29,083 nt of DNA from a virus. The translations under genes were made by a program, and so were the position numbers. The notes below the pieces were generated by a model. The model did no database searches. It had not been told where the DNA came from and worked only from the letters and a program-made list of their open reading frames with translations. The stretch covers positions 1-29,083 of IMG/VR virus record IMGVR_UViG_3300013104_000713, one strand, 5' to 3'. Shown piece after piece: positions 989-27,434 of the stretch (within the stretch, counting starts at the first letter, position 1; each line of letters starts with the position of its first letter).

Positions 989-1378
989 ATGCGCGCCTGC
1001 CTCGGAATCCCCGGCAAGCCTTGCGGTCGCATCACCAGCGCAGGCTCCCGCTGCCCTACTTGCAAGAGGGAGTTCCAGCGCCACCGCAAGGCAAGCGGCA
1101 GGACCGGAGAACGCGGCTCGACTCACACTTCTCGTCAGCGCCGACAGCGAGTCCTCGAGCGAGCCAACCACCGCTGCTTCTACTGCTCGGCCCCAGCCAC
1201 GATCGAGGACCACTACATCCCGAAGGCATGCGGGGGCTCAGACGAGGACTCAAACATGGTCGCCGCCTGTCAGCCCTGCAACTCAGCGAAGAGCGACAAG
1301 ATGCCAGCGGAGTTCATGGAGAGCGAGTGGCTGGCGGACCGGTGCCGGGAAGTGGCCGAGCGCCGAGACGCGGCGTAG
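989..1378 (+). CDS. HNH endonuclease, 129 aa
   Basis: This small nuclease has a clear HNH/treble-clef core: a first Cys pair (RCFYC, Cys63/Cys66), the DH dyad in the EDHYIPK motif (Asp74/His75), then a second Cys pair in CQPCN (Cys94/Cys97) followed by NSAKSDK. An extra Cys pair near residues 31-34 (CPTC) may form a second zinc site. HNH proteins next to the terminase genes are known in many HK97-type phages, where they assist terminase in cutting DNA at genome ends. Here the terminase lies about 1.1 kb downstream, which fits that role, although a free-standing homing nuclease cannot be excluded. Confidence 0.88.
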   Translation: MRACLGIPGKPCGRITSAGSRCPTCKREFQRHRKASGRTGERGSTHTSRQRRQRVLERANHRCFYCSAPATIEDHYIPKACGGSDEDSNMVAACQPCNSAKSDKMPAEFMESEWLADRCREVAERRDAA

Positions 1379-1387
1379 AATGCAGGC

Positions 1388-1669
1388 ATGATTCCGGTCA
1401 TCGAGTTCGTCGACTGCACCCCGGAGCAAGTCGCCAGTCGTATTGAGGAGCTGATGCGCGGGGACACGATGGCCCGAAAGGTCGTCATCGTGTCCGTGAC
1501 GGGGCAGACCGTCATCGGCACGTACGAACAAGTTGCTGACGAGGCGGTCGAGGTTGAGGTAGATCCCGTGTCGCAGCACTGCACTCGGGTGCCCTGCTCC
1601 GAGATAGCCAAATTCGGGGAATATGTACCGCCGCTCGACCGCACCGATGAGATAGGTGACCGATGGTGA
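1388..1669 (+). CDS. Hypothetical phage protein, 93 aa
   Basis: A 93-residue acidic protein. The N-terminus (MIPVIEFVDC) and the middle segment VIVSVTGQTVIGTYEQV look like beta strands of a small barrel, possibly SH3- or OB-like, followed by a charged tail ending DEIGDRW. No family is recognised. The start is the only plausible ATG, with only a weak purine stretch upstream. Its stop overlaps the next gene's ATG by seven bases. It is part of the small-gene block between the HNH nuclease and terminase. Confidence 0.55.
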   Translation: MIPVIEFVDCTPEQVASRIEELMRGDTMARKVVIVSVTGQTVIGTYEQVADEAVEVEVDPVSQHCTRVPCSEIAKFGEYVPPLDRTDEIGDRW

Positions 1670-14510: not shown

Positions 14511-17138
14511 ATGGCTGGTCCTTCCAGCAGCATCGACGTGTTCCTGCGCCTCCACGGGCAGCGCAAGTTTGCCAAGGAAGTAGCCGCATCTGGGGCGGAG
14601 CTTGAGGCAATGGGGCTGAAGGGCGCCAAAGCGGTGGCCAGCTTTGCCAATTCTGGCGAGAAGCTGAAGAGGTTCGGCAAATCCTGGACCCACAACGTCT
14701 CGATGCCCATCGCAGCGCTCGGCGTCGTCAGCGGCAAGATGGCGATGGACTTCGATCGGTCGATGTCGCTCATTGCCACGCAGGCCGGTGGCTCGGCGCG
14801 CGAAGTGAAAGGCCTAGAAAAGGCTGTGCTGGGGATGCACAACCAGTTCACTCCGAACGAACGAGCCCAGGGCCTCTTCTACATCGAGTCCGCCGGTCTC
14901 CGCGGCGCCAAAGCAATGGAAATGCTCCAGGCGAACGTAAAGCTCGCCACGACCGGCAACTCCAACCTCGAACACACCGTCTTTGGGACCGTCGGCGCCA
15001 TGAATGCCCTCGGAAAAGAAGGCAAAAATTTCACCAAGATCGCGGCCATTATGAACTCCACGGTCGGACACGGCCATATGCGGATGGAAGAATTGGTTGG
15101 GGCGATCTCTACCGGCTTGGTGGGGGCCGCGAAATCCTTCGGGGTCAGTTGGGGCGGGATGAGCTCGGCGGTCGCCTTCTTCACTCGCATGGGCGAACCG
15201 GCCCAGCAGGTAGCCACGCGTCTGCGGCAGACCATCACGCACCTGGCCACCAATGCCAGCACCAAAGGTGCCGAAGCCCTCGATTCGATCGGCATGTCGA
15301 CGGAGAAGATGGGCCAAAGGATCCGGAAAAGCGGGCGCATCGGGCCGGTCATCAAAGAACTTGCTGAACATCTCAAAGCGGTCTCGAAAACCAAGGCCGA
15401 TCAGGTACTCACCGATGCTTTCGGGGGCGGGCGATTCGGAACTCAGATTCGAGAGGCCACGCAGCGCTGGCAGCTTCTGCTTCGTACCGAAAAAGAAGTC
15501 GCGAAGTTCGGGACGGCGAAAGAACTCAACCGGGCTAATGCGATCGCCGAGAAGCAGTCCGCAGTGAAATTGAAAGAAACGTGGGGCGATCTGAGCGCCG
15601 TTCTCATCAATCTCGGCAACGTGGTATTGCCCGTTGCGGTACCGGCCCTTGAAAAACTCACTGGGGTCGTCAGTGGAGCAGGACATGCCTTCGGTGCGAT
15701 GTCACCTGAGGTGCAAGCCGGGATAGGCGGGTTCTTGCTGCTCACCGGACCAATCGCTCATGGACTTGGCTATTTCGCTGGCGGTGTTGGGCGAGCATTG
15801 ATTCTGACCAAAAAACTGATGGTCGCTGGCCAAGATTTCGGGGCGTTCGCGTGGGCGCTGAAAAGCGGCGGCCAGAGCATGAAAGGGGCGGCTTCCTATG
15901 CCTTCCGAGGTTCGGGTATAGCCGGGGCACTCCAGACCGCCAAAGGCTTCGCACTCTCCCTGGGGCCGGCAGTAGCTGCCTATGGCGTTGGAAACATCGT
16001 CACCTCTGCCTTGAGCGGAGACTGGGGCGATGCAGGGCTTGAGGCCGGAGGAGCCTTCGTCGGCGGCCTCGCGGGCTATCTGGGCGGCGGACCACTAGTC
16101 GGGATGCTTGGAATGGGTGCCGGCTCGTTGGCGGGCGAATTGCTCTCGGGGCTGTTCGGATCGGAAACCAAGGTTCTCTCAGCCCAAGAAAGGGCAGCGC
16201 AAAGCGCAAAGCGAGTGAAAGCGGCGCTTGAGGGGGAGCACCACGCATCGAGCGCACTCGCGAAATCAGGTGCGGCCCTTGTCTCGGCACATCACCGCCA
16301 GAAGGCCGCATCCCAAGAAGTGCGCCATGCCGAAAGGGCCCTGAGCACGATTCGGGCGGAATTCGGTCCCAACTCCGAGCAGGCGATCCGGGCGGAAGTC
16401 CACCTGGCGAAAGCCGGCGAACGCCGTTTTGCCATCACCCGCAAACTGCACCGCCAGGAAAAACTGCATGGAGAAGCCCAAGGTATCTTCAAGCAGGAGA
16501 ACGCCAACGCTGTCCTGCAAGAGCGTTCGCGGATCAAGCTGCTGAAAGGCCAGGTCGAAGAATCACGTGAGCGTCGTCGAAAGCTCATGTCTGAAGGTGT
16601 CACCGGCAGGCGTCTGATTCAGGCCGATGAAGCCCTCACGCAGCGAACTTCTGCCCTTCGCAAAGAACGTAGCGCCCTCTATAAATCGTGGGCCGAAGCC
16701 AACAAGAAGATCGGCCCTGAATGGGCGAACTTCGTCCGGCATGCAAATGCCAAGGCACTCGAACTAGGAAAGGGCCTCAAAGCGGTTCGTGAAGAAGCGG
16801 AAGGTCTTCGCAAAACCCTCCACAAGCTCCGTGAAAGCTCGAGCACCGACCTTGGGCCGTTCAAGCGTGGGGTAATAGAAGAAGCCACTGAATCAGCACT
16901 TGGCCGGAACCGGCGAGAAGAACGCGAATTGCGTCCGCATCACCACGGGCGCCATGCCGCGCCGCCCCGCCGATCGCCTAGACGGCGCGATCTGGTACTC
17001 ACCACACCCCTGGGATCCTCCCTTTCGGCCGCGAGCGCTGGCGGCGACATCGTGATCCCACTCACCGCGATCCTCGATGGAGATGTGGTTGCACAGAAGG
17101 TAACGCGCCGGGCGCAGAAGGCAGCTAACCGACAATAG
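14511..17138 (+). CDS. Tail tape measure protein, TP901-like, 875 aa
   Basis: The tape measure sets tail length and is injected with the DNA. The N-terminal quarter matches TP901-type tape measures: a helical start, MAMDFDRSMSLIATQAGGSAREV, then MHNQFTPNERAQGLFYIESAGLRG, NALGKEGKNFTKIAAIMNSTVGHGHMRMEELVGAI, and MGEPAQQVATRLRQTITHLA. Two hydrophobic Gly/Ala-rich regions lie near residues 400-440 and 505-550, as expected for membrane insertion. Residues 556-780 are charged coiled coil. The final 90 residues include HHHGRHAAPPRRSPRRR, a basic low-complexity segment. Using 0.15 nm per residue (known ruler rule), tail length would be about 130 nm. GGAGGTGG precedes the ATG. Confidence 0.92.
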   Translation: MAGPSSSIDVFLRLHGQRKFAKEVAASGAELEAMGLKGAKAVASFANSGEKLKRFGKSWTHNVSMPIAALGVVSGKMAMDFDRSMSLIATQAGGSAREVKGLEKAVLGMHNQFTPNERAQGLFYIESAGLRGAKAMEMLQANVKLATTGNSNLEHTVFGTVGAMNALGKEGKNFTKIAAIMNSTVGHGHMRMEELVGAISTGLVGAAKSFGVSWGGMSSAVAFFTRMGEPAQQVATRLRQTITHLATNASTKGAEALDSIGMSTEKMGQRIRKSGRIGPVIKELAEHLKAVSKTKADQVLTDAFGGGRFGTQIREATQRWQLLLRTEKEVAKFGTAKELNRANAIAEKQSAVKLKETWGDLSAVLINLGNVVLPVAVPALEKLTGVVSGAGHAFGAMSPEVQAGIGGFLLLTGPIAHGLGYFAGGVGRALILTKKLMVAGQDFGAFAWALKSGGQSMKGAASYAFRGSGIAGALQTAKGFALSLGPAVAAYGVGNIVTSALSGDWGDAGLEAGGAFVGGLAGYLGGGPLVGMLGMGAGSLAGELLSGLFGSETKVLSAQERAAQSAKRVKAALEGEHHASSALAKSGAALVSAHHRQKAASQEVRHAERALSTIRAEFGPNSEQAIRAEVHLAKAGERRFAITRKLHRQEKLHGEAQGIFKQENANAVLQERSRIKLLKGQVEESRERRRKLMSEGVTGRRLIQADEALTQRTSALRKERSALYKSWAEANKKIGPEWANFVRHANAKALELGKGLKAVREEAEGLRKTLHKLRESSSTDLGPFKRGVIEEATESALGRNRREERELRPHHHGRHAAPPRRSPRRRDLVLTTPLGSSLSAASAGGDIVIPLTAILDGDVVAQKVTRRAQKAANRQ

Positions 17139-17142
17139 AGAG

Positions 17143-17811
17143 TCAGGCACCTTCGTTGAAGGCATAAATAATGCCGTCACCAAAGCGATTGCTACATCGA
17201 GCCGTCTCATGTCCGACCTCCGGCTGCTCGCTTCCTGGAGGCGTTTGTACTACGACGATGGTTGATGTACACCGGAATGCACTGACAACGAAGCCGAGAG
17301 CCTCAAACGAAAAGGTGCTAACCGAGAAGCGGTGGGGCAACCGAAGGTTTGATCCCACGCGCTGTCGAACATGTTTAGCTAGTCCACGAGCATCTTCGCA
17401 GGAGACCCGAGTAGCGACCAGCCGGAGAGAAGGGTCGCGATTCTCTGGCAGTCCGTGGCGCCCGCAGGAACGCGGCTGCGGGGGAAGCGCCGGTCCAAAA
17501 TAGAAGCCAGTCGCGTTCCAGGTCGCCGTTCGCCAAGTGTCGCTGCTGGGTTCAGCAGCTGCAACCCCATCCCTGATCATTCCGGCGCTGGCTAGACGGA
17601 ACTCGCAACCCAGGCCTTCGGAACCGAGGGGAATCCGGTTGTTGCCGGGACAGTTGACGAATAAGCCTTCAGCCTTGGGGAACCGGCCTTCGATGTATCC
17701 CCTGACTGAGTTACTTGCCGCGTTGAGGCCCTGAGCCTCCGAGCAAGAGGGCGTGACCACCATGAAGGTTGCGATGGCCAGAAACAGCGAGGCCTTGGCC
17801 AACTGGGACAT
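17143..17811 (-). CDS. Minus-strand secreted cargo protein (moron), 222 aa
   Basis: The only recognised minus-strand gene inside the tail block. I start it at the ATG at 17811 because it begins a signal peptide (MSQLAKASLFLAIATFMVV...SCSEAQG, probable cut after SEA); longer N-terminal versions overlap the LysM gene. The mature protein has six Cys, probably disulfides. The first half (VNCPGNNRIPLGSEGLGCEF) resembles small cell-surface beta domains. The second half (TRVSCEDARGLAKHV ... FRCTST ... ARCSN...IIYAF) follows a pattern I associate with exported proteins of high-GC Actinobacteria. It ends 4 bases from the tape-measure stop and starts 29 bases from the LysM gene. A surface role such as superinfection exclusion is inference. 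Confidence 0.75.
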   Translation of the reverse strand: MSQLAKASLFLAIATFMVVTPSCSEAQGLNAASNSVRGYIEGRFPKAEGLFVNCPGNNRIPLGSEGLGCEFRLASAGMIRDGVAAAEPSSDTWRTATWNATGFYFGPALPPQPRSCGRHGLPENRDPSLRLVATRVSCEDARGLAKHVRQRVGSNLRLPHRFSVSTFSFEALGFVVSAFRCTSTIVVVQTPPGSEQPEVGHETARCSNRFGDGIIYAFNEGA

Positions 17812-17840
17812 CCGCGCGACCGTACCAGAAAGGCGCTCAA
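17812..17840 (-). promoter_or_regulatory. Candidate leaderless promoter of the secreted moron
   Basis: Reading on the minus strand: TTGAGC (17840-17835), 10 bases, TACGGT (17824-17819), then CGCGCGG and ATG. TACGGT fits an actinobacterial -10 element (TAnnnT) at the distance that would place the transcript start on or next to the A of ATG; no ribosome-binding site is present. The 10-base spacing is too short for a standard -35, so TTGAGC may be an operator part or chance. The same arrangement precedes the other minus-strand cassette. Confidence 0.45.
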
Positions 17841-18452
17841 GTGGCCCATCCCCAGCTCCACCTGATCTGCGACGACCTGGAAGTCGACCTCCATGTCGAC
17901 ATGGGAGATGGGCCGGCGACTCCCACCGCAGGGCATTCGGGCTGGGAAACGGTCGCCCGGGTCCGCCGCAAGGCGATGACTGCCTACGTAGGCGTGCAGC
18001 CATTCCAGCAGGACGTTCCGGTGCTGCTGGACGGGTTCCGCGAGAACCGCAGCATCCAGCGCCAGCTCGACCAGATCTTGAGCCTGGGCGAAGGGAAAGT
18101 CCTTTTCCACGCCTATGGGCCAATCCATAACGAGGGTGGCCCCTACGTCTTCGGAGATGAGCCCGAACTGGGAGATGCGATCAGGGCCGAGGACGGGACG
18201 CTGGTCCGCCAGGCCTTGACCCTGAAGCTGATGGAGTACGTGCCCGCAGATCAGGCTGGAAAGCGCGAGGGACCGAAGGTCGCGATCGGAGACGCCAAGG
18301 CGCTGACCTACACGACTGTCCAACGGGACACGCTCGCCAAGATCGCCTTCAAGCTCTATCACGACTGGAGACGCTGGGAGGAAATCGGGCGGAAGAACGG
18401 CATCTCCGATCCCCACCGGGTTCTTCCGGCCGGACGTGAACTGAAGCTGTGA
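17841..18452 (+). CDS. Baseplate/tail protein with C-terminal LysM domain, 203 aa
   Basis: GTG 17841 is chosen because AGAAAGG lies 7 bases upstream; the longer version from 17769 would overlap the moron. The N-terminal part is beta-rich (LHLICDDLEVDLHVDMGDGP, GWETVARVRRKAMTAYVG), continuing PVLLDGFRENRSIQRQLDQI. Residues about 158-203 are a LysM-like module: TYTTVQRDTLAKIAFKLYHDWRRWEEIGRKNGISDP...LPAGRELKL. Phage proteins of this build (P2 gpX or PBSX XkdP/gp53-like) sit between tape measure and hub, and help attach the tube to the baseplate. The stop overlaps the hub start (GTGA). Confidence 0.82.
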   Translation: MAHPQLHLICDDLEVDLHVDMGDGPATPTAGHSGWETVARVRRKAMTAYVGVQPFQQDVPVLLDGFRENRSIQRQLDQILSLGEGKVLFHAYGPIHNEGGPYVFGDEPELGDAIRAEDGTLVRQALTLKLMEYVPADQAGKREGPKVAIGDAKALTYTTVQRDTLAKIAFKLYHDWRRWEEIGRKNGISDPHRVLPAGRELKL

Positions 18453-20380
18453 GCACTCCGCAGAAGGGCACCAAGAACCGGATCCAGGGCGTCGAATCGA
18501 CCATCGAGGATCTGGTGCTCCGCAACGGCCAACGTCTCCCGCTGAATGTCGGTGTCGCCGAGGTGCCGAGTCCCACGTTGAAGCGGACCATCGTCGGGGC
18601 GAGCTCGATCGAAGTCCCGGTCTTTGACCCCGAGCGCCGACTGCTGCGCAACTCCCTGATTTCACAGAAATGGGATGCCGAGGTCGACGGACTCCACTTT
18701 CGGTATCCGGGCGGTCTGAGCAAGAGCGGCGACACGCTGACCGTTACGCTCGAAGACCGCTGGATCGCGCTTCTGCGTGAAAAGGAAGGGCCGAAGCGCG
18801 CCCTGCGCAGCAAGAGCACGCGAGCGGAGTTCATCAAGTCCCTGGTGGAAGAAGCATGTCCGGGCCTTGAGTTCGTCTGCCCGCAGCTCCACGTCAAACA
18901 GCCGATCAAGACCGAAGCACAGGGCAAAAAGGCCACCGAAGACGCTAAGGCAAAACTCGGGAAGGGGATCGGAGACACCAAGGGCCTGACGGTCGAGGGG
19001 CAACCTGCGACCGCGGCCCAGAAGCAGATCGCCCAGGAAGCGCTTCAGGTCGCCGAGTCCCTTCAGCAGCCCCCTGTGGTCCTTGAGGCGGTGATGGTGG
19101 CCCTGATGGATGAGTCCCACATCGGCGAGCTGACTGGCGGCAAGAACGTATTGCAGGCCGAGGGGAGTTCCAAGGGTGCCGACACTGGCTCAACCGTTCA
19201 GGAGGTGACGAACTTCCTGACGGGCAAGGGCGGGTATGGCGAAGGCGGCGTCATCGGGATCTTGAAGAAGCACCCGACCTACACCCCGCCCGAGCTCGCA
19301 ACGACCGCACAGCGCAATGCGGCCTTTCTCAACGGAGGGCTGGCGGCGGGGGCAGCACCCTATGCGCGCTTCTCGTCCGAGGCCAAGAAGTGGGTCGAAG
19401 CCTTCAAGGGTGGCGAATTCAGCGACACCTCGATCACCGTCACTGAGCCGTTCAAGTTCGTCGTCAAGAAAAAGGAAGACTTCTGGGCCGCGATCAAACG
19501 CCTGGCCAAGGACGTCAACTGGCGGGCTTTCATCGTTGGCAACCGCTTCTACTTCATGCCCGAGACCGAACTGTTTCAGGGCATGGTGCGGCTGGCAATC
19601 GATGGCGACACGCCCGGCATCGAAAACATCGACTTCGACTACGACGGCAACCATCCGGTGAGCGAAGTAACCGTAGAAGTGCGCATCAGTCAGTGGAAGC
19701 CACCGCCAGGATCTGTCGTCACGTTGGCCGACTACGGCCCCGCAAGCATCGGCTTCGGCGATGCGCCGGTCAAACCCGACAAAAAGGGTCAGAAGGCAGG
19801 GCTCAGCGGCAATCGCAAAGCGAAGACCGGCGAAGGTCGCGCTCGCTACATCGTCTCCTCGATCGAGGTGCCTGTGGATGATGAGCCTGCGCAACGGCTT
19901 GCCACGATCACGCTGAAAAAGCCCACGGCCCCCCTGCCCGAACCGGCCGCGGAAAAGAAGACCATCGGCGGAATCTCGGGGAGCGCCATCGGCAACAAGA
20001 CCGTCGAACGAGTGTTGGCCTTCCTCGAAAAGGAAGCCGAAGCCAACCCGCCATATGTATGGGGCGGCTTCAGCCCCAAAGGCTACGATTGCTCAGGCCT
20101 CGTCTCTAAAGCCTTGGATGTAGGTGGGTGGCTGACCGGGCGCCTTGATACTCAAGGTTTGGCCGGATGGGGCGAGGCGGGGCCGGGTGAACTCATCACC
20201 GTCTACATCAAGACCTCCGGTAGCGCCCAAGAAGAACACACAATTATCGAAGTCGCAGGGAAGTTCTTCGAGAGCGGCGGCGGGTCCAACGAAAGCGCGA
20301 GCGGGGGAGCGACGGAGTTCTCTCCAGATAAGAGCTACCTGGCCGAGTTCGATACCAAGCGCCACCCCAAAGGTTTCTGA
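18449..20380 (+). CDS. Baseplate hub protein with C-terminal NlpC/P60 peptidase, 643 aa
   Basis: The first ~130 residues (IEDLVLRNGQRLPL..., VPVFDPERRLL, DGLHFRYPGGLSKSGDTLTVTLEDRW) and residues ~330-500 (a helix-rich segment then AFIVGNRFYFMPETE, ENIDFDYDGNHPVSEVTVEV) fit phage hub proteins (gpD/gp27-type). Between them, residues ~205-320 form an inserted part beginning AVMVALMDESHIGEL (Glu222) and ending AQRNAAFLNGGLAAG...SSEAKKWVEAF, reminiscent of a transglycosylase-like insert. Residues ~525-625 are NlpC/P60: PPYVWGGFSPKGYDCSGLV with nucleophile Cys548, and His597 in EEHTIIEV. The hub would cut peptidoglycan stem peptides during DNA entry. Hub and NlpC/P60 calls are firm; the insert is tentative. 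Confidence 0.88.
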   Translation: MSTPQKGTKNRIQGVESTIEDLVLRNGQRLPLNVGVAEVPSPTLKRTIVGASSIEVPVFDPERRLLRNSLISQKWDAEVDGLHFRYPGGLSKSGDTLTVTLEDRWIALLREKEGPKRALRSKSTRAEFIKSLVEEACPGLEFVCPQLHVKQPIKTEAQGKKATEDAKAKLGKGIGDTKGLTVEGQPATAAQKQIAQEALQVAESLQQPPVVLEAVMVALMDESHIGELTGGKNVLQAEGSSKGADTGSTVQEVTNFLTGKGGYGEGGVIGILKKHPTYTPPELATTAQRNAAFLNGGLAAGAAPYARFSSEAKKWVEAFKGGEFSDTSITVTEPFKFVVKKKEDFWAAIKRLAKDVNWRAFIVGNRFYFMPETELFQGMVRLAIDGDTPGIENIDFDYDGNHPVSEVTVEVRISQWKPPPGSVVTLADYGPASIGFGDAPVKPDKKGQKAGLSGNRKAKTGEGRARYIVSSIEVPVDDEPAQRLATITLKKPTAPLPEPAAEKKTIGGISGSAIGNKTVERVLAFLEKEAEANPPYVWGGFSPKGYDCSGLVSKALDVGGWLTGRLDTQGLAGWGEAGPGELITVYIKTSGSAQEEHTIIEVAGKFFESGGGSNESASGGATEFSPDKSYLAEFDTKRHPKGF

Positions 20381-20389
20381 GGGGAAGCT

Positions 20390-20683
20390 ATGCCCGACCC
20401 CGCGGAACTCGACCCGCGCTCCGTCCCGCCCGCGGAGCAGGTACTGCACGAGGCGGTCGTCCTCGACGACGCCTCGCTTCCCGGCGAGCAGATCCGCTGC
20501 GTCATCCCGAGCGAAGGCGAACATCTGGCGACCGATCCACTGCAATGGATGCCCTATGTGACGCCGGTTGGATTCTTCTACCCCAAGCGTGGCGACAGGG
20601 CAATCCTCGGAGACCCCGTTCAGGGACCCGAAGCGATCTTGGCCTGGTGGCCTAAAGCCACCGAACCCGATTCACCCCTTTAG
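20390..20683 (+). CDS. Small baseplate-region protein, 97 aa
   Basis: The gene lies between hub and gp25-like wedge, where contractile-tail phages normally encode the spike or its small partner (gpV/gp45-type). The protein has a Pro-rich, acidic start and a beta-rich end: QWMPYVTPVGFFYPKRGDRAILGDPVQGPEAILAWWP, where PKRGDRAILGD resembles the OB-fold loop of baseplate V proteins. It is too short to hold a full beta-helix spike, so it may be a small OB-fold plug. A GGGGAAGC site precedes the ATG. Confidence 0.55.
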   Translation: MPDPAELDPRSVPPAEQVLHEAVVLDDASLPGEQIRCVIPSEGEHLATDPLQWMPYVTPVGFFYPKRGDRAILGDPVQGPEAILAWWPKATEPDSPL

Positions 20684-20701
20684 CCCCGAGAGGAGCACTG
20701 C

Positions 20702-21019
20702 GTGGCTGTCAAGACCCCTCATCTCGCTGCGCCGTTTTCCTTCACGGGAACCGCCCTTGCCGTGGTGGAACAGGACTCTGTTGCCGAGATCCGCCAGTGC
20801 GTCATCTCCTGTCTCAGCACTCGCCGCGGCTCCCGGATGGACGCACCGGACTTCGGAATTCCAAACCACCTCTTCAATCGCCTCACCGGGCGCTCGAGCC
20901 TTGACGACTACCTGACTGCAATCGAAGAATCGGAGCCCCGGGCGCATGTTCTCGGCAAGGCCGAGATCGAAGGCATGATCGAGCGGATCGTCTTCAAGTT
21001 GGAGCCCGCCGGTGTCTGA
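20702..21019 (+). CDS. Baseplate wedge protein, gp25/gpW-like, 105 aa
   Basis: A 105-residue protein with the gp25-like pattern: VVEQDSVAEIRQCVISCLSTRRGSRMDAPDFGIPNHLF, where the R-G-S-R-x-x-P-x-F-G-I run is the family hallmark (usually GER...PxFG), followed by helix DDYLTAIEESEPRA and strands. gp25 proteins join wedges to the hub and trigger sheath contraction. Cys and Ser replace residues of the usual motif only in minor ways. GTG start with GAGAGGAG upstream; it overlaps the baseplate J start by eight bases, the normal gp25-J order. Confidence 0.85.
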   Translation: MAVKTPHLAAPFSFTGTALAVVEQDSVAEIRQCVISCLSTRRGSRMDAPDFGIPNHLFNRLTGRSSLDDYLTAIEESEPRAHVLGKAEIEGMIERIVFKLEPAGV

Positions 21020-22406
21020 AATCGCCACGATCGAACCCGGGGGAGACGCCGCGCTCTTCGAGCAGGAAATGAAGGAACAGCTCGAAGCCAGATTCGAAGG
21101 CATCAAATTTGCCGAAGGCGCTCCGATCACCTGGCTGATCAAAGCCCAGGCGAGGATCGATGCGACTATCGCCACCCAGGCGGTGGGCACCACCACCGAA
21201 TACCTGCGGAAGTTCGGCGAAACCATCATCAGCGTTCCGCCGGTAGCGGCGGCTCCGGCGATCATCACAAGCACCTGGACGATGATCGACTCGGCGGGCT
21301 ACACCATCCCGAGCGGCGCTCAGGTTGCGGTTGCGGCCACCGGTGATCAATCTGTCGGCTTCATCGTCATCGGCGACGTCACCGTTGCGCCCGGTGACAC
21401 TGAAACGGCTGGGGGAGAGGTCCTGCTCCAGGCGATCAAACCCGGGGAGGAAGGCAACGGCCTCAGTGGCGATGCAAGCCTGGTTGACGCGCTTGCCTTC
21501 GTTCAATCGATAGCTCTCGAAGGGGTTACGTCGGGCGGGGTGGATGAAGAGGAAGAAGAGGCCTATCTCGTTCGCCTCAAGGAAGAGCTACAGCTTCTAT
21601 CTCACTCACTGATCGTTTCTCGCGACTTTGAGATCGACGCTCGAGCCACGCCCGGGGTCGCACGAGTTCTCTGCATACCCGCATATAACGGCGAAGCCGA
21701 AAAAGAAGAAGCGCTGGCGGTTACTGAGATAGGGGTGGATGAGGCCGGCGCGTCGCTTGCGGCTCCGGTCAAAGAAGATCTGGGGACCCGGCAGGAAGAA
21801 AAGCTCCCCAGCGGGGTCAATCTCTATCTCGCCGACCCAACACACACGAAGGTCGATGTCTTCTCTGTCGTCACTGCGTCCACCGGCTTTGACCCTGCTG
21901 CGGTCAAATCTTCCGCAGGCGAGCGCCTTGCCGAATACCTGGACCCGAGCAAATGGGGCGTTCCCGGTTTCGGTGACGCCGGAAATTCGACGGGTTGGGT
22001 GAACACGACCAAGGTCTACTTCAACGAGCTGATCTCCGAGGTGGACCGCGTCCCTGGGGTGGACCGGGTCGTCTCCCTTCTACTCGGCAGCGGATCGGGC
22101 AAAGCCTTCACGGTCACGGCCTCTACGGACAAATTCTCCTCGGTCGCACATGGCTTCTCCAACGGGGATGTGGTGGTCTTGCGGACGGGCCTGACGCCAG
22201 GCGCCCCGCTCGCCGCCGGCACCGTCTATTACGTCCGCGACGTCGAAGCCGACGCCTTCAAGTTGACGGCGACGGTTGGAGGCGCCGCGATCGACATCAC
22301 CTCCGACGGCTCAGGAACGGCGGTGAAGCTGGGAACGGCCGATGTGACCCTGCCTGGCCTCGCTCCGCTTGCCGAACCGGGGGAGATCGGGGTGGAGGTC
22401 GAATGA
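21012..22406 (+). CDS. Baseplate J-like protein with C-terminal inserted domain, 464 aa
   Basis: The wedge component gpJ/gp6-like. Recognisable features: helical N-terminus, QVAVAATGDQSVGFIV and VTVAPGDTETAGGEVLLQAIKPGEEGNGL (J core), GGVDEEEEEAYLVRLKEELQ (the ExxxxYRxRL motif), and a terminal ADVTLPGLAPLAEPGEIGVEV. Between a normal VDRVVSLLLG and that end, residues about 360-440 form an extra beta domain (FTVTAST...HGFSNGDVVVLRTGL...YYVRDVEADAFKLTAT...) of the type scattered through phage and bacterial surface proteins. Typical J proteins lack it. The GTG start is chosen by overlap with the gp25-like gene. Confidence 0.9.
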   Translation: MSEIATIEPGGDAALFEQEMKEQLEARFEGIKFAEGAPITWLIKAQARIDATIATQAVGTTTEYLRKFGETIISVPPVAAAPAIITSTWTMIDSAGYTIPSGAQVAVAATGDQSVGFIVIGDVTVAPGDTETAGGEVLLQAIKPGEEGNGLSGDASLVDALAFVQSIALEGVTSGGVDEEEEEAYLVRLKEELQLLSHSLIVSRDFEIDARATPGVARVLCIPAYNGEAEKEEALAVTEIGVDEAGASLAAPVKEDLGTRQEEKLPSGVNLYLADPTHTKVDVFSVVTASTGFDPAAVKSSAGERLAEYLDPSKWGVPGFGDAGNSTGWVNTTKVYFNELISEVDRVPGVDRVVSLLLGSGSGKAFTVTASTDKFSSVAHGFSNGDVVVLRTGLTPGAPLAAGTVYYVRDVEADAFKLTATVGGAAIDITSDGSGTAVKLGTADVTLPGLAPLAEPGEIGVEVE

Positions 22407-24997
22407 GTATCGGCGCGCCGCTCATAGACGGCTATCTGGAGTCGACCAATCCAGCGTCTTTCGCGCGACGCAAGGAGGTGTTCGTCTACGAACGAGGGAC
22501 CGAAGTCGAGGCCCAGCTCTACGCAGACGAAGCCCTCACCGAACCGATCACCCAGCCGCTCATCACCGACAAAGGTGGCCGACCCCGAGACAAAAGTGGG
22601 CGAGTTGTTTGGGTCGATCCAACTAGCACCTATGACGTCGAAATCGACGGAGAGACCGTGCCCTGGAATCCCCCTTCGACTGGCCCAGTAGATCTCTCTG
22701 GCTATCAGCAGATCTCCGCGAAGGGGGCAGCCAACGGTTACGCATCCCTGGAAGCCGCCGGCAAGGTCCCTGCCGCCCAACTCCCCAGCGCGATCATGGA
22801 ATATCAGGGGACCTGGAACGCCTCGACCAACACTCCGAAACTTGAAGATGGCAAAGGCTCCAACGGCGATGTCTACCGAGTCAGCATAGCTGCGGAACGC
22901 AACCTTGGATCGGGGACGATCGATTTCAAAGTCGGTGACTATGCGATCTACAACGGCTCGACCTGGGAGAAGTCCGATACCACCGATGCCGTCGCAAGCG
23001 TGGCCGGGAAGACGGGAGCGGTCACCCTCGGGCAGGCTGATATCGAAGGGCTGGTTGCGGGGCTCGAAGGTAAGCAACCGCTCGACGCCGACCTGACCGC
23101 GATCTCTGGCCTGAGCTCCGAAGACCAGGCAATCCTCGTGCGCTCAGGCGGCTCGTGGGCGGCTCTCGCGAAAGGGGCCGCCGGGGAACAGCTCATCGTG
23201 CGCTCGGACGGGACGCTTGCTTGGGTCAAGCCGACCGCCATCAAGGCTGCCGCGTGGGGGGTCAAAGCCGACGGTGTGACCAATGACTCGGCGGCGTTAG
23301 ACGCCACGATCTCAACCATGATCGAAAAGGGGCTGCCGGGCGAGCTGCCTGAGGGGGAAATCAAGACGACGAAAGAACACAAGGCCGTCACGGACTACTT
23401 CGCCATGTACGGGGCGGGGGCGACGCGCACCAAGATCGTCCCTGAAAAATCGACCTATAACGCTCTGGTTGTCGGGCCAGGCGCAGAAGGCTCGGGCAAC
23501 CGGCCGAGCCTGCACCTCCGCGATTTCGGTATCGCGGGAGGCAATGCGGCAATCACGACCGCCGGCGTCGAAAAGACCACCGGGAAGGCGGCTCTGGTGC
23601 TCGATGGGATGCGTCTCGGCACGGTCGAGCGGGTCAGCATCACCGGCGCCCACGACATCGGCTTCGACCTGACCCACAATTGCTTTGGGGTCGAATTCAA
23701 GCTCTGTCGCACCGATCTCAACTGCTGCCGTGTCGGGGTGAACCTCCGCAAAGGCGAAGAAAACGGCGAAGACATCCTCTTCACGAACTGCTGGTTCGCG
23801 GGCGAAGTGGCTGCAATGCACGTGGCTTCCTCGGGCAAGAACTACCGCGTGATCGGCGGCCAACTGAGCGCGGCTCGCCAGAACACGGTCGAAGAGGATC
23901 TCCGCGGCGTGGTGATCCTCTGCAAGGACTACCTGACCGGCGCTACGGTCGAAGGCGGCGAAGTCCACATGCAGCTCCAGACTTCCTTCGAGTTCTTCCC
24001 GAAGGTCTGGGCGATCCGGAGCTTCGGCCGGATCCACCTCGAGCTCCGCTCGTCCTTCAACCCCAATGGTGCCGGCGGTCCGGCGATCGGCTTCTTCAAA
24101 GGGTCGAGCCTGGTCGAAAGCGTCGTCCGGATGGATGGCTGCAACATCCACGGCAAGTGGATCAAATACGGGGAAGGGATCGTCAAACTGGAAGGCGCTA
24201 ACTCCGATTTCCAGTGGAAGGAGATCGGCTCCTGGGGGATCTATGAAAACTCCAGCGGCAGCGAATCCACTCATGCGGAATGGGCGCCGATCTGGCTGCA
24301 GGGGAAAATCACGAACTCCGGCGGCAGCACTCGCTCGGAAAACATCGTCCACCACGGCAACGGCGTCCTGGCCAAGGCCGAAGGGGAAGCGCTCAAATGG
24401 AGCCGCGACTGGGGCTCGACCTGGAAGTACCTGACTCCCGAAGGCAAGACCTACGCCTCAGCCAACACGATGACTCTCGACGCCGGTATCGCCCTCGCAA
24501 AGATCACCGGCACGACGGAAATCAAAAAAATCAATGCCACCTTTGAAGGGCATAGCGTCACCTTGAAGTTCGCTGGAGCCTTGACGGTTAAGAAAGGTGA
24601 AAACCTAGAACTTCGCGAAGACATGGTGATGGCCGCTGGGAGCGTCCTAACCCTGATTTGCGACGGCACTAATTGGTATCAGACACCGCGGGACTATCAA
24701 AAGGCAGTCGCTCCAACCGCTCTCGCAGAAAAAGCCGAAAAAACGGAAGTCGAACCATCGGCGACGCGCACCGCCATCGTCACCGGCCGGGTGGAAACCG
24801 CCTCGGCGACCCGGACGGTCATCAGAATCCTCGTCGGCGCGACGATAGTGGCAGAACTAGAGGCGTCGGTGACTGTCACCGGCAAATCACTCTTGCCCTT
24901 CTGCTTCACGGTCCCTGCCGGCTCCAAATGGAAGTGGGAAAAGGTCGAAGGAACGGTGGAAACCAACGGCTTCAAGTTCTCGACCACGGTGATCTGA
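22403..24997 (+). CDS. Long tail fibre / tailspike with pectate-lyase-type beta-helix, 864 aa
   Basis: ATG 22403 overlaps the J stop (ATGA); the open frame upstream lies inside J and is not used. The N-terminus (SIGAPLIDGYLESTNPASFARR...) is a baseplate-attachment module. Residues ~195-260 hold the spacer VAGKTGAVTLGQADIEGLV...GKQPLDADLTAI known from fibre proteins. Residue ~283 begins AAWGVKADGVTNDSAALDATI, the start motif of pectate-lyase-3 type beta-helices, which continue to about residue 620. The C-terminal part has further beta domains (SVTLKFAGALTVKKGENLELRED; VTGRVETASATRTVI). Such spikes bind and often cleave surface polysaccharide; active-site residues cannot be picked out from sequence alone. 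Confidence 0.82.
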   Translation: MSIGAPLIDGYLESTNPASFARRKEVFVYERGTEVEAQLYADEALTEPITQPLITDKGGRPRDKSGRVVWVDPTSTYDVEIDGETVPWNPPSTGPVDLSGYQQISAKGAANGYASLEAAGKVPAAQLPSAIMEYQGTWNASTNTPKLEDGKGSNGDVYRVSIAAERNLGSGTIDFKVGDYAIYNGSTWEKSDTTDAVASVAGKTGAVTLGQADIEGLVAGLEGKQPLDADLTAISGLSSEDQAILVRSGGSWAALAKGAAGEQLIVRSDGTLAWVKPTAIKAAAWGVKADGVTNDSAALDATISTMIEKGLPGELPEGEIKTTKEHKAVTDYFAMYGAGATRTKIVPEKSTYNALVVGPGAEGSGNRPSLHLRDFGIAGGNAAITTAGVEKTTGKAALVLDGMRLGTVERVSITGAHDIGFDLTHNCFGVEFKLCRTDLNCCRVGVNLRKGEENGEDILFTNCWFAGEVAAMHVASSGKNYRVIGGQLSAARQNTVEEDLRGVVILCKDYLTGATVEGGEVHMQLQTSFEFFPKVWAIRSFGRIHLELRSSFNPNGAGGPAIGFFKGSSLVESVVRMDGCNIHGKWIKYGEGIVKLEGANSDFQWKEIGSWGIYENSSGSESTHAEWAPIWLQGKITNSGGSTRSENIVHHGNGVLAKAEGEALKWSRDWGSTWKYLTPEGKTYASANTMTLDAGIALAKITGTTEIKKINATFEGHSVTLKFAGALTVKKGENLELREDMVMAAGSVLTLICDGTNWYQTPRDYQKAVAPTALAEKAEKTEVEPSATRTAIVTGRVETASATRTVIRILVGATIVAELEASVTVTGKSLLPFCFTVPAGSKWKWEKVEGTVETNGFKFSTTVI

Positions 24998-24998
24998 G

Positions 24999-25676
24999 AT
25001 GCCGATCGTCATCGATCCGCCAGAAGCACGGCCGCTCCCGCCGCCGGCAGATGACGGCTCCAACCTCTGGGAGCTGCTCTATGAATCGATGGGATTTCAT
25101 AGGGATGCCGACGAAGCCAATGACTTCGCCCTGCGGAAGTTCTGCGAAGCCTGGTGCGCTCCCCTGCAGCCGATCTATGACCTGGTGCGGGAACGGGCCG
25201 ACGGAACGCCTCCCTGGGGGATCCTCTTCGACGTAGACAACTGCCCTGCGGAGTGCCTGCCATACCTGGCTCAGTATGTGGGGGTCGTCTTGACGCCCGA
25301 GATGAGCGAGGAGCAGATCCGCGCCGAGCTCAAAGAGCCGACTGGCTGGAAACGTGGGCAGCCGGAAGCGATTCGGATCGCACTTCGGCGGACGCTGACG
25401 GGGGACGAACCGCTGGTGATCATCCGGCCGCGCACTCCCGAAGTCGGACACCACTACATCCGGACGCTCCTCAGCCAAACTCCGGAACCGGAAAGAACCG
25501 AGCGGGTGCTGCGGGAAAAGTTACTACCGGCGTGGGAGTTGTTGGACTACGCGGCGATCGACGGCGTGACCGTGCTTGACGTTGCCTCGTCGGCGAAATG
25601 GACCACCGTCGCCGATCTGGCCGCCGCTTGTCCGAGCGTCAAAGACCTCGCCGAAATCCTGCCCACCGATCTGTAA
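24999..25676 (+). CDS. Tail protein I-like baseplate protein, 225 aa
   Basis: The gene lies in the standard J-fibre/I neighbourhood. The protein has LWELLYESMGFHRDADEANDFALRKFCEAWCAPLQPIYDLV, then DVDNCPAECLPYLAQYVGVVLTPEMSEEQIRAEL and GWKRGQPEAIRIALRRTLTGDE, closely following the P2 gpI-type pattern (C-P-x-x-x-L-P-x-L-A...; R-G-T-x-x-A-I...). gpI joins fibres to the baseplate wedge. The C-terminal 60 residues (WELLDYAAIDGVTVLDV...) form a strand and helices. One base separates it from the fibre stop. Confidence 0.8.
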   Translation: MPIVIDPPEARPLPPPADDGSNLWELLYESMGFHRDADEANDFALRKFCEAWCAPLQPIYDLVRERADGTPPWGILFDVDNCPAECLPYLAQYVGVVLTPEMSEEQIRAELKEPTGWKRGQPEAIRIALRRTLTGDEPLVIIRPRTPEVGHHYIRTLLSQTPEPERTERVLREKLLPAWELLDYAAIDGVTVLDVASSAKWTTVADLAAACPSVKDLAEILPTDL

Positions 25677-25685
25677 GGAGAAGAG

Positions 25686-26405
25686 ATGGCCGTCTCTGGC
25701 AAAACCGCGGCGCCAATCGAAGCGCCGTACTTCCTGGACTCCGACGCACCGCCGAACATGGCGACCGTGACCAAGGCGATGTCGGATCGCCTCCATGCTC
25801 TCATCGGAGCGTTTGGTTTGGACGAGGTTCTCGATGGGTCGGCGACCAAAGGCCAGATCCTCATCGCACAATCGGGAGACGTTGCCCGCTTCAAGGAGAT
25901 TTCGGGAGACGGAACTATTGACGAGGAAGGCGTCTTCCTGCTTGCCGCAAGCATCAAGCAGGCGCTGATCCCAGTGGGTACGCTTCTGCCAACGACGCTT
26001 GAAGAAGCACCTTCCGGCTTTCTCATCCCCATCGGCGCGGACATCGCAAGGTCCACCTACAGCGCCCTGTTCGCAGCATGGGGCACGCGCTATGGAACAG
26101 GCAACGGCTCCACTACATTCGGCACTCCGGACCTGCGTGGCCGTGTCGTCGTCGGCAAGGGTACGCACTCCGATGTCAACAGCCTCATCGACACGGACGG
26201 ACTATCGGTCGGCTCGCGGACCCCGAAAACCTCGGGCACGTTCTCCGGCACGACGGGCGTCGATAGCAAAAACGTCAATATCGAGGGCGGCACCAGCGGC
26301 AACTTCTCCGAACCGGCCGATAGGGACCACACGCATCAATTCTCAGGCACCACCAGTGCCCACGGCCCCGCCTACGCGGTCGCGAACTGGATGGTCAAGT
26401 ACTAG
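25686..26405 (+). CDS. Tail-collar fibre (receptor-binding candidate), 239 aa
   Basis: An AAGGAGAAG site precedes the ATG. Residues ~100-165 form a tail-collar domain: PVGTLLPTTLEEAPSGFLIPIGADIARSTYSALFAAWGTRYGTGNGSTTFGTPDLRGRVVVGKG, with the signature G-x-G-x-x-T-F-x-x-P-D-L-R-G-R. The end includes DRDHTHQFSGTTSAHGPAYAVANWMVKY, the HxH and final aromatic strand usual in such fibre tips. The N-terminal ~95 residues are helical and beta, likely for trimer formation and binding to the baseplate. This would be the second receptor-binding protein besides the beta-helix fibre. Confidence 0.85.
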   Translation: MAVSGKTAAPIEAPYFLDSDAPPNMATVTKAMSDRLHALIGAFGLDEVLDGSATKGQILIAQSGDVARFKEISGDGTIDEEGVFLLAASIKQALIPVGTLLPTTLEEAPSGFLIPIGADIARSTYSALFAAWGTRYGTGNGSTTFGTPDLRGRVVVGKGTHSDVNSLIDTDGLSVGSRTPKTSGTFSGTTGVDSKNVNIEGGTSGNFSEPADRDHTHQFSGTTSAHGPAYAVANWMVKY

Positions 26406-26784
26406 AACGCCGAGTCAAGCGCAGGCCGGTTCGTCATATTCGTTCGTCGTGATCATCCTCAACGTCGCGTGGCGCAGGAAGCCATGGATGATGTGGCCTC
26501 GAAGGCGATAGGTGAGGCGGGCATAGACTGGCCGCCCTCCGCACCTCACGAGCTTGTGTAGCCGGAGGATAACTGGTAGCAAGCGAACTTCGCCATTGGC
26601 ACATGAGGGGGTGCAGCCTTGGGTTCGGGCCGTTCCCTTCCCAACTGCAACTCTTCCTCCATAGGTCCCCCACCTGATACCGCGAATGGAGAACGTGCGG
26701 TCGCAGGAGATCCCGATGCGGTGTGGTCGATAGACGAATTCGGTCGGGAAGCATGCGCCCCGGGCGACCACTGCGCGTTCATGG
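26406..26784 (+). other. No + strand gene between tail fibre and lysis genes
   Basis: On the + strand I see no frame with a start, ribosome-binding site or recognisable family here. The interval is taken up by the minus-strand cargo gene at 26415-26771. I see no good terminator hairpin with a T tract after the fibre stop. Confidence 0.6.
26415..26771 (-). CDS. Secreted-family cargo protein lacking a visible signal peptide, 118 aa (possibly 5'-truncated)
   Basis: The minus frame encodes GISCDRTFSIRGIRWGTYGGRVAVGKGTA...GCTPSCANGEVRLLPVILRL...RCGGRPVYARLTYRLRG, a pattern I know from exported proteins of high-GC Actinobacteria (core GxxW...CxPSCAxG...V...C...Y..L.Y). It is therefore likely real, although the antisense position alone would be unconvincing. 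The best start I see is GTG at 26771, without a ribosome-binding site; no signal peptide precedes the conserved part. It starts 14 bases after the DUF2510 gene ends. Either it is a truncated gene, or the partner supplies its export. Alternative: a decaying remnant. Confidence 0.55.
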   Translation of the reverse strand: MVARGACFPTEFVYRPHRIGISCDRTFSIRGIRWGTYGGRVAVGKGTARTQGCTPSCANGEVRLLPVILRLHKLVRCGGRPVYARLTYRLRGHIIHGFLRHATLRMITTNEYDEPACA

Positions 26785-27150
26785 CTAGCTAGAAGCCGAA
26801 GCGGTCCCTGATCCCAGCGCTGCTTGAGCTCCCCTGCTGCTCGAACCGGTGGCGATGGCAAGCAGGAACCCGATGAGCAGCTCGGCGACGATCACGGCCA
26901 GCGCGAGCCGAATGATGTTCCCGGCGTTCCGATGCCCGATGACGCCCATCACGAAGCCGATGAAAAGCGCCGGGATCGGGAAGAGGACGGTCAGAACCTT
27001 GGCGGTGAGGCTCGTGTCGGTCGGGGCCGAATCCGGCGTCGGGAGGGCTGCAAGTCGCTGCTCGCTCCAGCCGGTCCCATCCCACCAACGCTGCTGCCCT
27101 GAGCCGTCGTCATAGAAGCCGGGCGGTGGCGCAGTTCCCTGTCCCTCCAT
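26785..27150 (-). CDS. DUF2510 membrane protein (moron), 121 aa
   Basis: I start at ATG 27150, since it opens directly onto the DUF2510 domain; a longer form from 27216 would overlap the divergent gene. Residues ~8-30 are the domain: PPPGFYDDGSGQQRWWDGTGWSEQ. Two membrane helices follow (about 49-72 and 80-100), then a Ser/Ala tail. DUF2510 is characteristic of Actinobacteria, usually N-terminal to membrane segments. No ribosome-binding site is seen; a TACGAT element lies 9 bases upstream. It is divergent from the lysis genes. Likely function: membrane cargo in the lysogen, such as superinfection exclusion; this is inferred. Confidence 0.75.
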   Translation of the reverse strand: MEGQGTAPPPGFYDDGSGQQRWWDGTGWSEQRLAALPTPDSAPTDTSLTAKVLTVLFPIPALFIGFVMGVIGHRNAGNIIRLALAVIVAELLIGFLLAIATGSSSRGAQAALGSGTASASS

Positions 27151-27181
27151 AGCGCGCGCATCGTACCTGACCCCGACCCAA
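27151..27181 (-). promoter_or_regulatory. Candidate leaderless promoter of the DUF2510 cassette
   Basis: On the minus strand: TTGGGT (27181-27176), 10 bases, TACGAT (27165-27160), then GCGCGCGCT and ATG. It repeats the layout in front of the other minus-strand cassette, including GG directly before TACG and an alternating GC stretch before ATG. TACGAT matches TAnnnT and would start transcription within a base or two of ATG. Confidence 0.45.
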
Positions 27182-27197
27182 CGGAGACCGATGACCC

Positions 27198-27434
27198 TTG
27201 AGCGAGCCATCGCCACTCAGCCTCGTCGTGGAACGCCAAGACCGGCTCGAGGCAGACCAAGACGAGACCCGGAGGAAGGTCGACAGGGTGCCCGTGCTTG
27301 AAGCTCAGGTCGAGCTGCTGACCAGGGCCTTCGATCGGAACACCAACGCCCTCTACACGGCGGCCGGCTCTCTGATCATCACCGGGGTGCTCGGGGTCCT
27401 CACCGCTCTCCTTCTGAAAGGAGTCATCGGATGA
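27198..27434 (+). CDS. XhlA-like coiled-coil membrane protein (holin-associated), 78 aa
   Basis: TTG 27198 is the most plausible start, with GGAG 11 bases upstream. The first 48 residues are a heptad-type coiled coil (LVVERQDRLEADQDETRRKVDRVPVLEAQVELL), followed by one membrane helix (residues ~54-75, AAGSLIITGVLGVLTALLL). This layout equals XhlA/hemolysin-type phage proteins that work with holin and lysin. The position just before the lysin gene supports a lysis role. It overlaps the next gene by four bases (ATGA). Confidence 0.7.
   Translation: MSEPSPLSLVVERQDRLEADQDETRRKVDRVPVLEAQVELLTRAFDRNTNALYTAAGSLIITGVLGVLTALLLKGVIG

Follow-up and report, generated by a model that had tools for sequence, protein, structure and literature searches.

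Morons are defined as DNA that one phage carries between two genes and a relative lacks at the corresponding position, typically an open reading frame together with a flanking promoter and terminator (PMC3029335). In Mycobacterium tuberculosis, TANNNT functions as a -10 element without a -35, with a leaderless share of 26% (PMC3898074), and leaderless genes are predicted to be common across Actinobacteria (PMC3160421). Among Gordonia and Mycobacterium phages, prophage-expressed genes have been described in CarolAnn and Sbash, in Sbash from their own promoter (PMC6426606), and P90 of Adephagia is predicted to be leaderless (PMC11373665).

The two minus-strand genes considered here share several features with these systems. 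Like morons (PMC3029335), they are insertions between genes that abut in relatives, have the opposite orientation and carry a promoter-like element; unlike them, no clear terminator was found at the cassette ends, and at one of the two sites the promoter appears to stay with the phage core while the open reading frame changes, instead of both travelling together. The putative promoters match those of actinobacterial leaderless genes (TANNNT, no -35, start codon 7–9 bases past the hexamer, no Shine-Dalgarno sequence; PMC3898074, PMC3160421), but are located in phage cargo cassettes and are predicted from sequence. With CarolAnn, Sbash and Adephagia they have in common presumed expression in the lysogen, a putative promoter of their own (Sbash) and a predicted leaderless case (Adephagia), whereas the genes described here lie among tail and lysis genes and belong to different protein families. 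The cargo hotspots of P2-like phages (PMC9122126) likewise occupy a fixed place between core genes and hold exchangeable cargo, but they belong to another phage group, and no convincing match to a defence family was obtained for the present cargo.

The window, that is, the whole stretch of DNA analysed, is the entire IMG/VR record IMGVR_UViG_3300013104_000713, a fragment of 29,083 bases. Genes for terminase, portal, prohead protease, capsid, tape measure, baseplate J and collar all lie on its plus strand, and the phage is contractile-tailed. The capsid relatives among named phages are mainly those of Rhodococcus, Gordonia and Mycobacterium phages (about 31–37% identity). Together with DUF2510, an actinobacterial domain found in one of the cargo proteins, they point to Actinobacteria as the host group; a look-up with the LysM gene across genome contigs gave one weak Planctomycetota match, to the LysM part only, and was uninformative. 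Since no integrase or repressor was recognised within the 29-kb fragment, the lifestyle, probably temperate, is judged from the relatives. The genes that define the two cassettes and their borders are as follows.

14511–17138, plus strand: tape measure gene, bounding cassette 1 on the left
17143–17811, minus strand: cassette 1 cargo gene (P0001), 222 aa, with an N-terminal signal-peptide/lipoprotein-like segment
17841–18452, plus strand: conserved tail gene with a C-terminal LysM-like part and a GTG start; in relatives this start adjoins the tape measure gene or lies within its end
25686–26405, plus strand: tail collar/fibre gene, bounding the cassette 2 cargo site on the left
26785–27150, minus strand: cassette 2 cargo gene, 121 aa, with an N-terminal DUF2510 (PF10708) above the Pfam cut-off and hydrophobic segments
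27198–27434, plus strand: gene for a holin-like small membrane protein (TTG start, GGAG at 27183–27186), divergent from cassette 2 and right border of the cargo site

Comparison with related records shows an extra gene between neighbouring genes at both places. The gap between the tape measure and LysM genes is 702 bp in the window versus -4 to +44 bp in 8/8 relatives. The distance from the collar gene to the holin-like gene is 70 bp and free of cargo in relative L072, and about 0.4–1.3 kb, with differing minus-strand genes, in the window and in relatives L070, L048 and L050. A relative of the DUF2510 gene (37% identity) occurs in L051 (16278–16586, minus strand) at a comparable place beside a different small membrane protein, where it is preceded by TAAGTT-N6-GTG. 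That the minus-strand reading frames or their starts might not be genuine is hardly credible: P0001 is indeed atypical in codon use, with weak codon bias, and has no relatives in Pfam, PHROGs, NCBIfam, PADLOC, PDB, phages, plasmids or viral contigs, but a 222-aa reading frame in a random 702-bp gap has a probability of about 0.0005, the DUF2510 match exceeds the family threshold and its relative sits at a corresponding position. A structure predicted for P0001 from its single sequence had a mean pLDDT of 33 and was left unused. Both genes are most likely acquired, passenger-type insertions, and the insertion comparison supports the proposal of the preliminary description that they are cassettes with a transcription start, as predicted, of their own. 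No convincing minus-strand terminator was found at the cassette ends, and the overall terminator count fell below that of shuffled sequences. As the T-run pattern is ill-suited to high-GC phages, this absence is weak evidence, and the cassettes are accordingly called moron-like.

Two side observations concern the cargo region. Between the collar and DUF2510 genes, some 380 bp (26406–26784) hold no convincing gene on either strand and are perhaps the remains of earlier cargo. The minus strand of the corresponding region in L050 (16585–16962 and 17087–17425) and L047 (17296–17895) carries genes for a small protein resembling a zinc ribbon, homologues of which occur in two relatives, and for a secreted protein; the zinc-ribbon-like gene of L050 has a Shine-Dalgarno sequence and an upstream TAAGAT, not a leaderless start.

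The letters ahead of the two cargo genes were described previously as TTGRGY, a 10-base gap, TACGRT, 7–9 bases and ATG. Read on the minus strand, site 1 comprises TTGAGC (17840–17835), the gap GCCTTTCTGG (17834–17825), TACGGT (17824–17819), CGCGCGG (17818–17812) and ATG (17811–17809), and site 2 comprises TTGGGT (27181–27176), the gap CGGGGTCAGG (27175–27166), TACGAT (27165–27160), GCGCGCGCT (27159–27151) and ATG (27150–27148). These elements and the 10-base spacing are present at both sites; the description of the gap as GG-free is wrong for site 2, which contains GGGG. The parts that resemble promoters are the following.

17812–17826, minus strand: leaderless-type promoter 1, GG followed by TACGGT and CGCGCGG, abutting the ATG at 17811; TGG ahead of the hexamer forms an extended -10
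27151–27167, minus strand: leaderless-type promoter 2, GG followed by TACGAT and GCGCGCGCT, abutting the ATG at 27150; GGTACG is aligned in L070, L048 and L072

The first T of TANNNT lies 13 bp ahead of the ATG at site 1 and 15 bp ahead of it at site 2, in keeping with leaderless starts, for which this T is expected about 12 bp from the start codon, and neither CGCGCGG nor GCGCGCGCT contains a Shine-Dalgarno sequence. TACGRT alone is not enriched in the window (5 occurrences versus 6.9 expected), and TACGRT-N6-9-ATG occurs exactly twice, at the two cargo genes; 11 of 300 random windows had two or more such matches. TANNNT stands 5–9 bases ahead of 0.6% of all ATG and GTG triplets in the window. 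When the relatives are included, TANNNT-N5-9-start precedes 10 of 21 minus-strand genes versus 7 of 309 plus-strand genes (Fisher 1.5e-9), a contrast that partly reflects position, as minus-strand genes come first in their transcript and most plus-strand genes lie within a long operon, and that draws on few minus-strand gene calls, some possibly wrong, from a caller trained on structural genes that missed atypical ones such as cassette 1. Control patterns preceded 2–3 of the 21. Because HTH repressors and a serine recombinase (integrase) are among these minus-strand genes, TANNNT leaderless starts appear to be the way in which this phage group begins its lysogeny-side transcripts.

Taken as a prediction from sequence and comparison, a leaderless start from TACGRT is supported, and TANNNT at leaderless distance, conserved among relatives, would represent the cassettes' own promoter. 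The preferred reading, to which we assign a probability of roughly 0.75, is that both genes have leaderless cargo promoters consisting of a -10 only and form self-contained moron-like cassettes. These promoters might instead be read by a SigB/SigF-type alternative sigma factor in place of the housekeeping one, in which case expression of the cargo would be linked to stress or to stationary phase. The -10 consensus of such factors is GGGTAC-like (GGGTAY), and at both sites, as in L070 and L048, TAC does follow GG; however, GG is common in a GC-rich genome, a consistent -35 is missing at the spacing typical of SigB/SigF-type promoters, and the other leaderless genes of the group (TAGGCT, TAGGGT, TAAGTT) fit TANNNT and not GGGTAY, so this assignment is improbable.

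Similar elements were noticed elsewhere in the group. On the plus strand, just after the HNH gene, TAGAAT-N6/8-ATG occurs in the window (1376–1390), L002 (about 1699–1715) and L004 (about 2340–2355), where it precedes differing small proteins and is possibly a leaderless promoter conserved where the late region has its left end. In L062 (2447–3221; G005 36746–37520), two divergent genes share one short region with the -10-like sequences TATAGT and TACTAT, possibly an early switch with two leaderless transcripts.

The upstream box was proposed earlier as a possible operator, and the shared layout as a sign of common regulation of the two cassettes; the box has to be considered together with the neighbouring start signals.

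17827–17833, plus strand: Shine-Dalgarno AGAAAGG of the LysM gene, within the 10-base gap of site 1
17835–17840, minus strand: TTGAGC, on the plus strand GCTCAA, the six bases directly before GTG 17841; judged coincidental
27176–27181, minus strand: TTGGGT, kept in L070 only and not in L048, L050 or L072

Site 1 reads on the plus strand as CCAGAAAGGCGCTCAA-GTG, that is, AGAAAGG, seven bases and the GTG of the LysM gene, the N-terminus of which agrees with its relatives from GTG 17841 onward; the site 1 gap, when reverse-complemented, is CCAGAAAGGC, the stretch that contains this Shine-Dalgarno sequence. As the box at site 1 falls within the translation start signal of the LysM gene, TTGRGY is probably a coincidence. 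A phage repressor or activator that binds TTGRGY and controls both cassettes jointly would account for the identical spacing of 10 and for the retention of TTGGGT in L070. The latter is no separate signal, because the whole intergenic segment of L070 is 91% identical to the window, and in the five-member alignment of site 2 TTGGGT is restricted to the window and L070 while GGTACG is found in 4/5; an operator would be expected to be conserved at the same place, and L048, L050 and L072 lack it there. The full motif has two exact matches in the window and no others, and a scan allowing two mismatches or fewer gave 9 versus 6.5 expected, which is no excess. The motif had been defined after both sites were seen. 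In nine related records there is no exact match, and one-mismatch matches number 4 versus 10 for a reversed control pattern. A hexamer shared at equal spacing and as good as TTGAGC/TTGGGT arises in 10–14% of random stretch pairs, and in 27–36% if the spacing may vary by one, which brings the chance of such a coincidence to 10–36% of pairs and leaves the operator quite improbable. As a -35, TTGRGY was rejected: the 10-base spacing is too short, and no conserved -35 occurs at the usual spacing. What remains of the proposed common regulation, thus weakened, is that both cassettes use the same type of promoter.

The segment ahead of cassette 2 is conserved independently of the cargo. Between the window and L070, the intergenic segment is identical at 43/47 positions and the holin-like gene at 72%, whereas the cargo is at the level of shuffled sequence; the identity breaks at the start codon, and the downstream gene of L070 is an unrelated secreted-protein gene. 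At the same place L048 has CGGGTTCTGGTACGGTCGCG ahead of yet another secreted protein, and L072 keeps GGTACG with a broken -10 (TACGTA). Across all viral contigs, the site 2 promoter pattern was found, besides the window, in the L070 contig only. Promoter 1 contains 16 bases, TTCTGGTACGGTCGCG, identical in L048, and TTCTGGTACGGTCGCG-NNN-RTG occurs across all viral contigs, besides the window, only in this related L048 contig; the cargo proteins of L048 and of cassette 1 are unrelated. On these alignments, the similarity of the -10 region across sites is real and may stem from copying or from selection.

The segment might instead be kept for the plus strand, as the mRNA leader of the holin-like gene, with the minus-strand -10 incidental. 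It does hold the GGAG of that gene, and cargo-free L072 retains GGTACG; but no role on the plus strand is evident for the distal GGTACGRT part, the -10 is broken in L072, and the cargo of the window, L070 and L048 starts at leaderless distance. The same element also occurs at site 1, where the plus-strand context differs, and this explanation is unlikely. The best reading is that the collar/holin-like junction is a standing cargo site where the promoter persists and genes are swapped. A more far-reaching proposal, which is tentative and rather doubtful, is that the junction is a promoter-anchored exchange site: a core-fixed leaderless promoter would express any reading frame joined at its start codon without a ribosome-binding site, the promoter/holin-leader segment would provide the homology for swapping, and the near-identical promoter of cassette 1 would have arisen as a copy transferred to another location.

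In the favoured model, that of leaderless cargo promoters, the cassettes, which run counter to the structural operon, belong to an actinophage that has a contractile tail and is probably temperate, and each promoter would be essentially one -10 element (GGTACGGT, GGTACGAT; TANNNT type, without a -35). RNA polymerase, presumably with the housekeeping sigma factor, would recognise the -10 and begin the RNA at the first base of the start codon (A or G) or beside it; on the resulting leaderless message, the ribosome would initiate at the 5' end. Such a unit would need about 20 bases, and since no ribosome-binding site is required, the control region could fit into the roughly 30–50 bp between divergent start codons. 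The cargo would probably be transcribed in the lysogen while the late operon is silent; at site 2, relatives retain the putative promoter and carry unrelated, mostly secreted or membrane proteins downstream, and TTGRGY would have no role. Because several cargo proteins look secreted or membrane-bound, they may function at the envelope, for example in superinfection exclusion.

The component parts are of known kinds; promoter-anchored swapping is mildly new, and the promoter-anchored cargo site is the part that deserves further attention. Leaderless translation may ease cargo exchange, as promoter and start codon would form one small unit. For uncultured actinophages, a minus-strand gene within the late operon with TANNNT 5–9 bases ahead of its start would provide a rule to recognise passenger genes, and the cargo site adjoining the lysis genes would be a place to seek new envelope or exclusion proteins.
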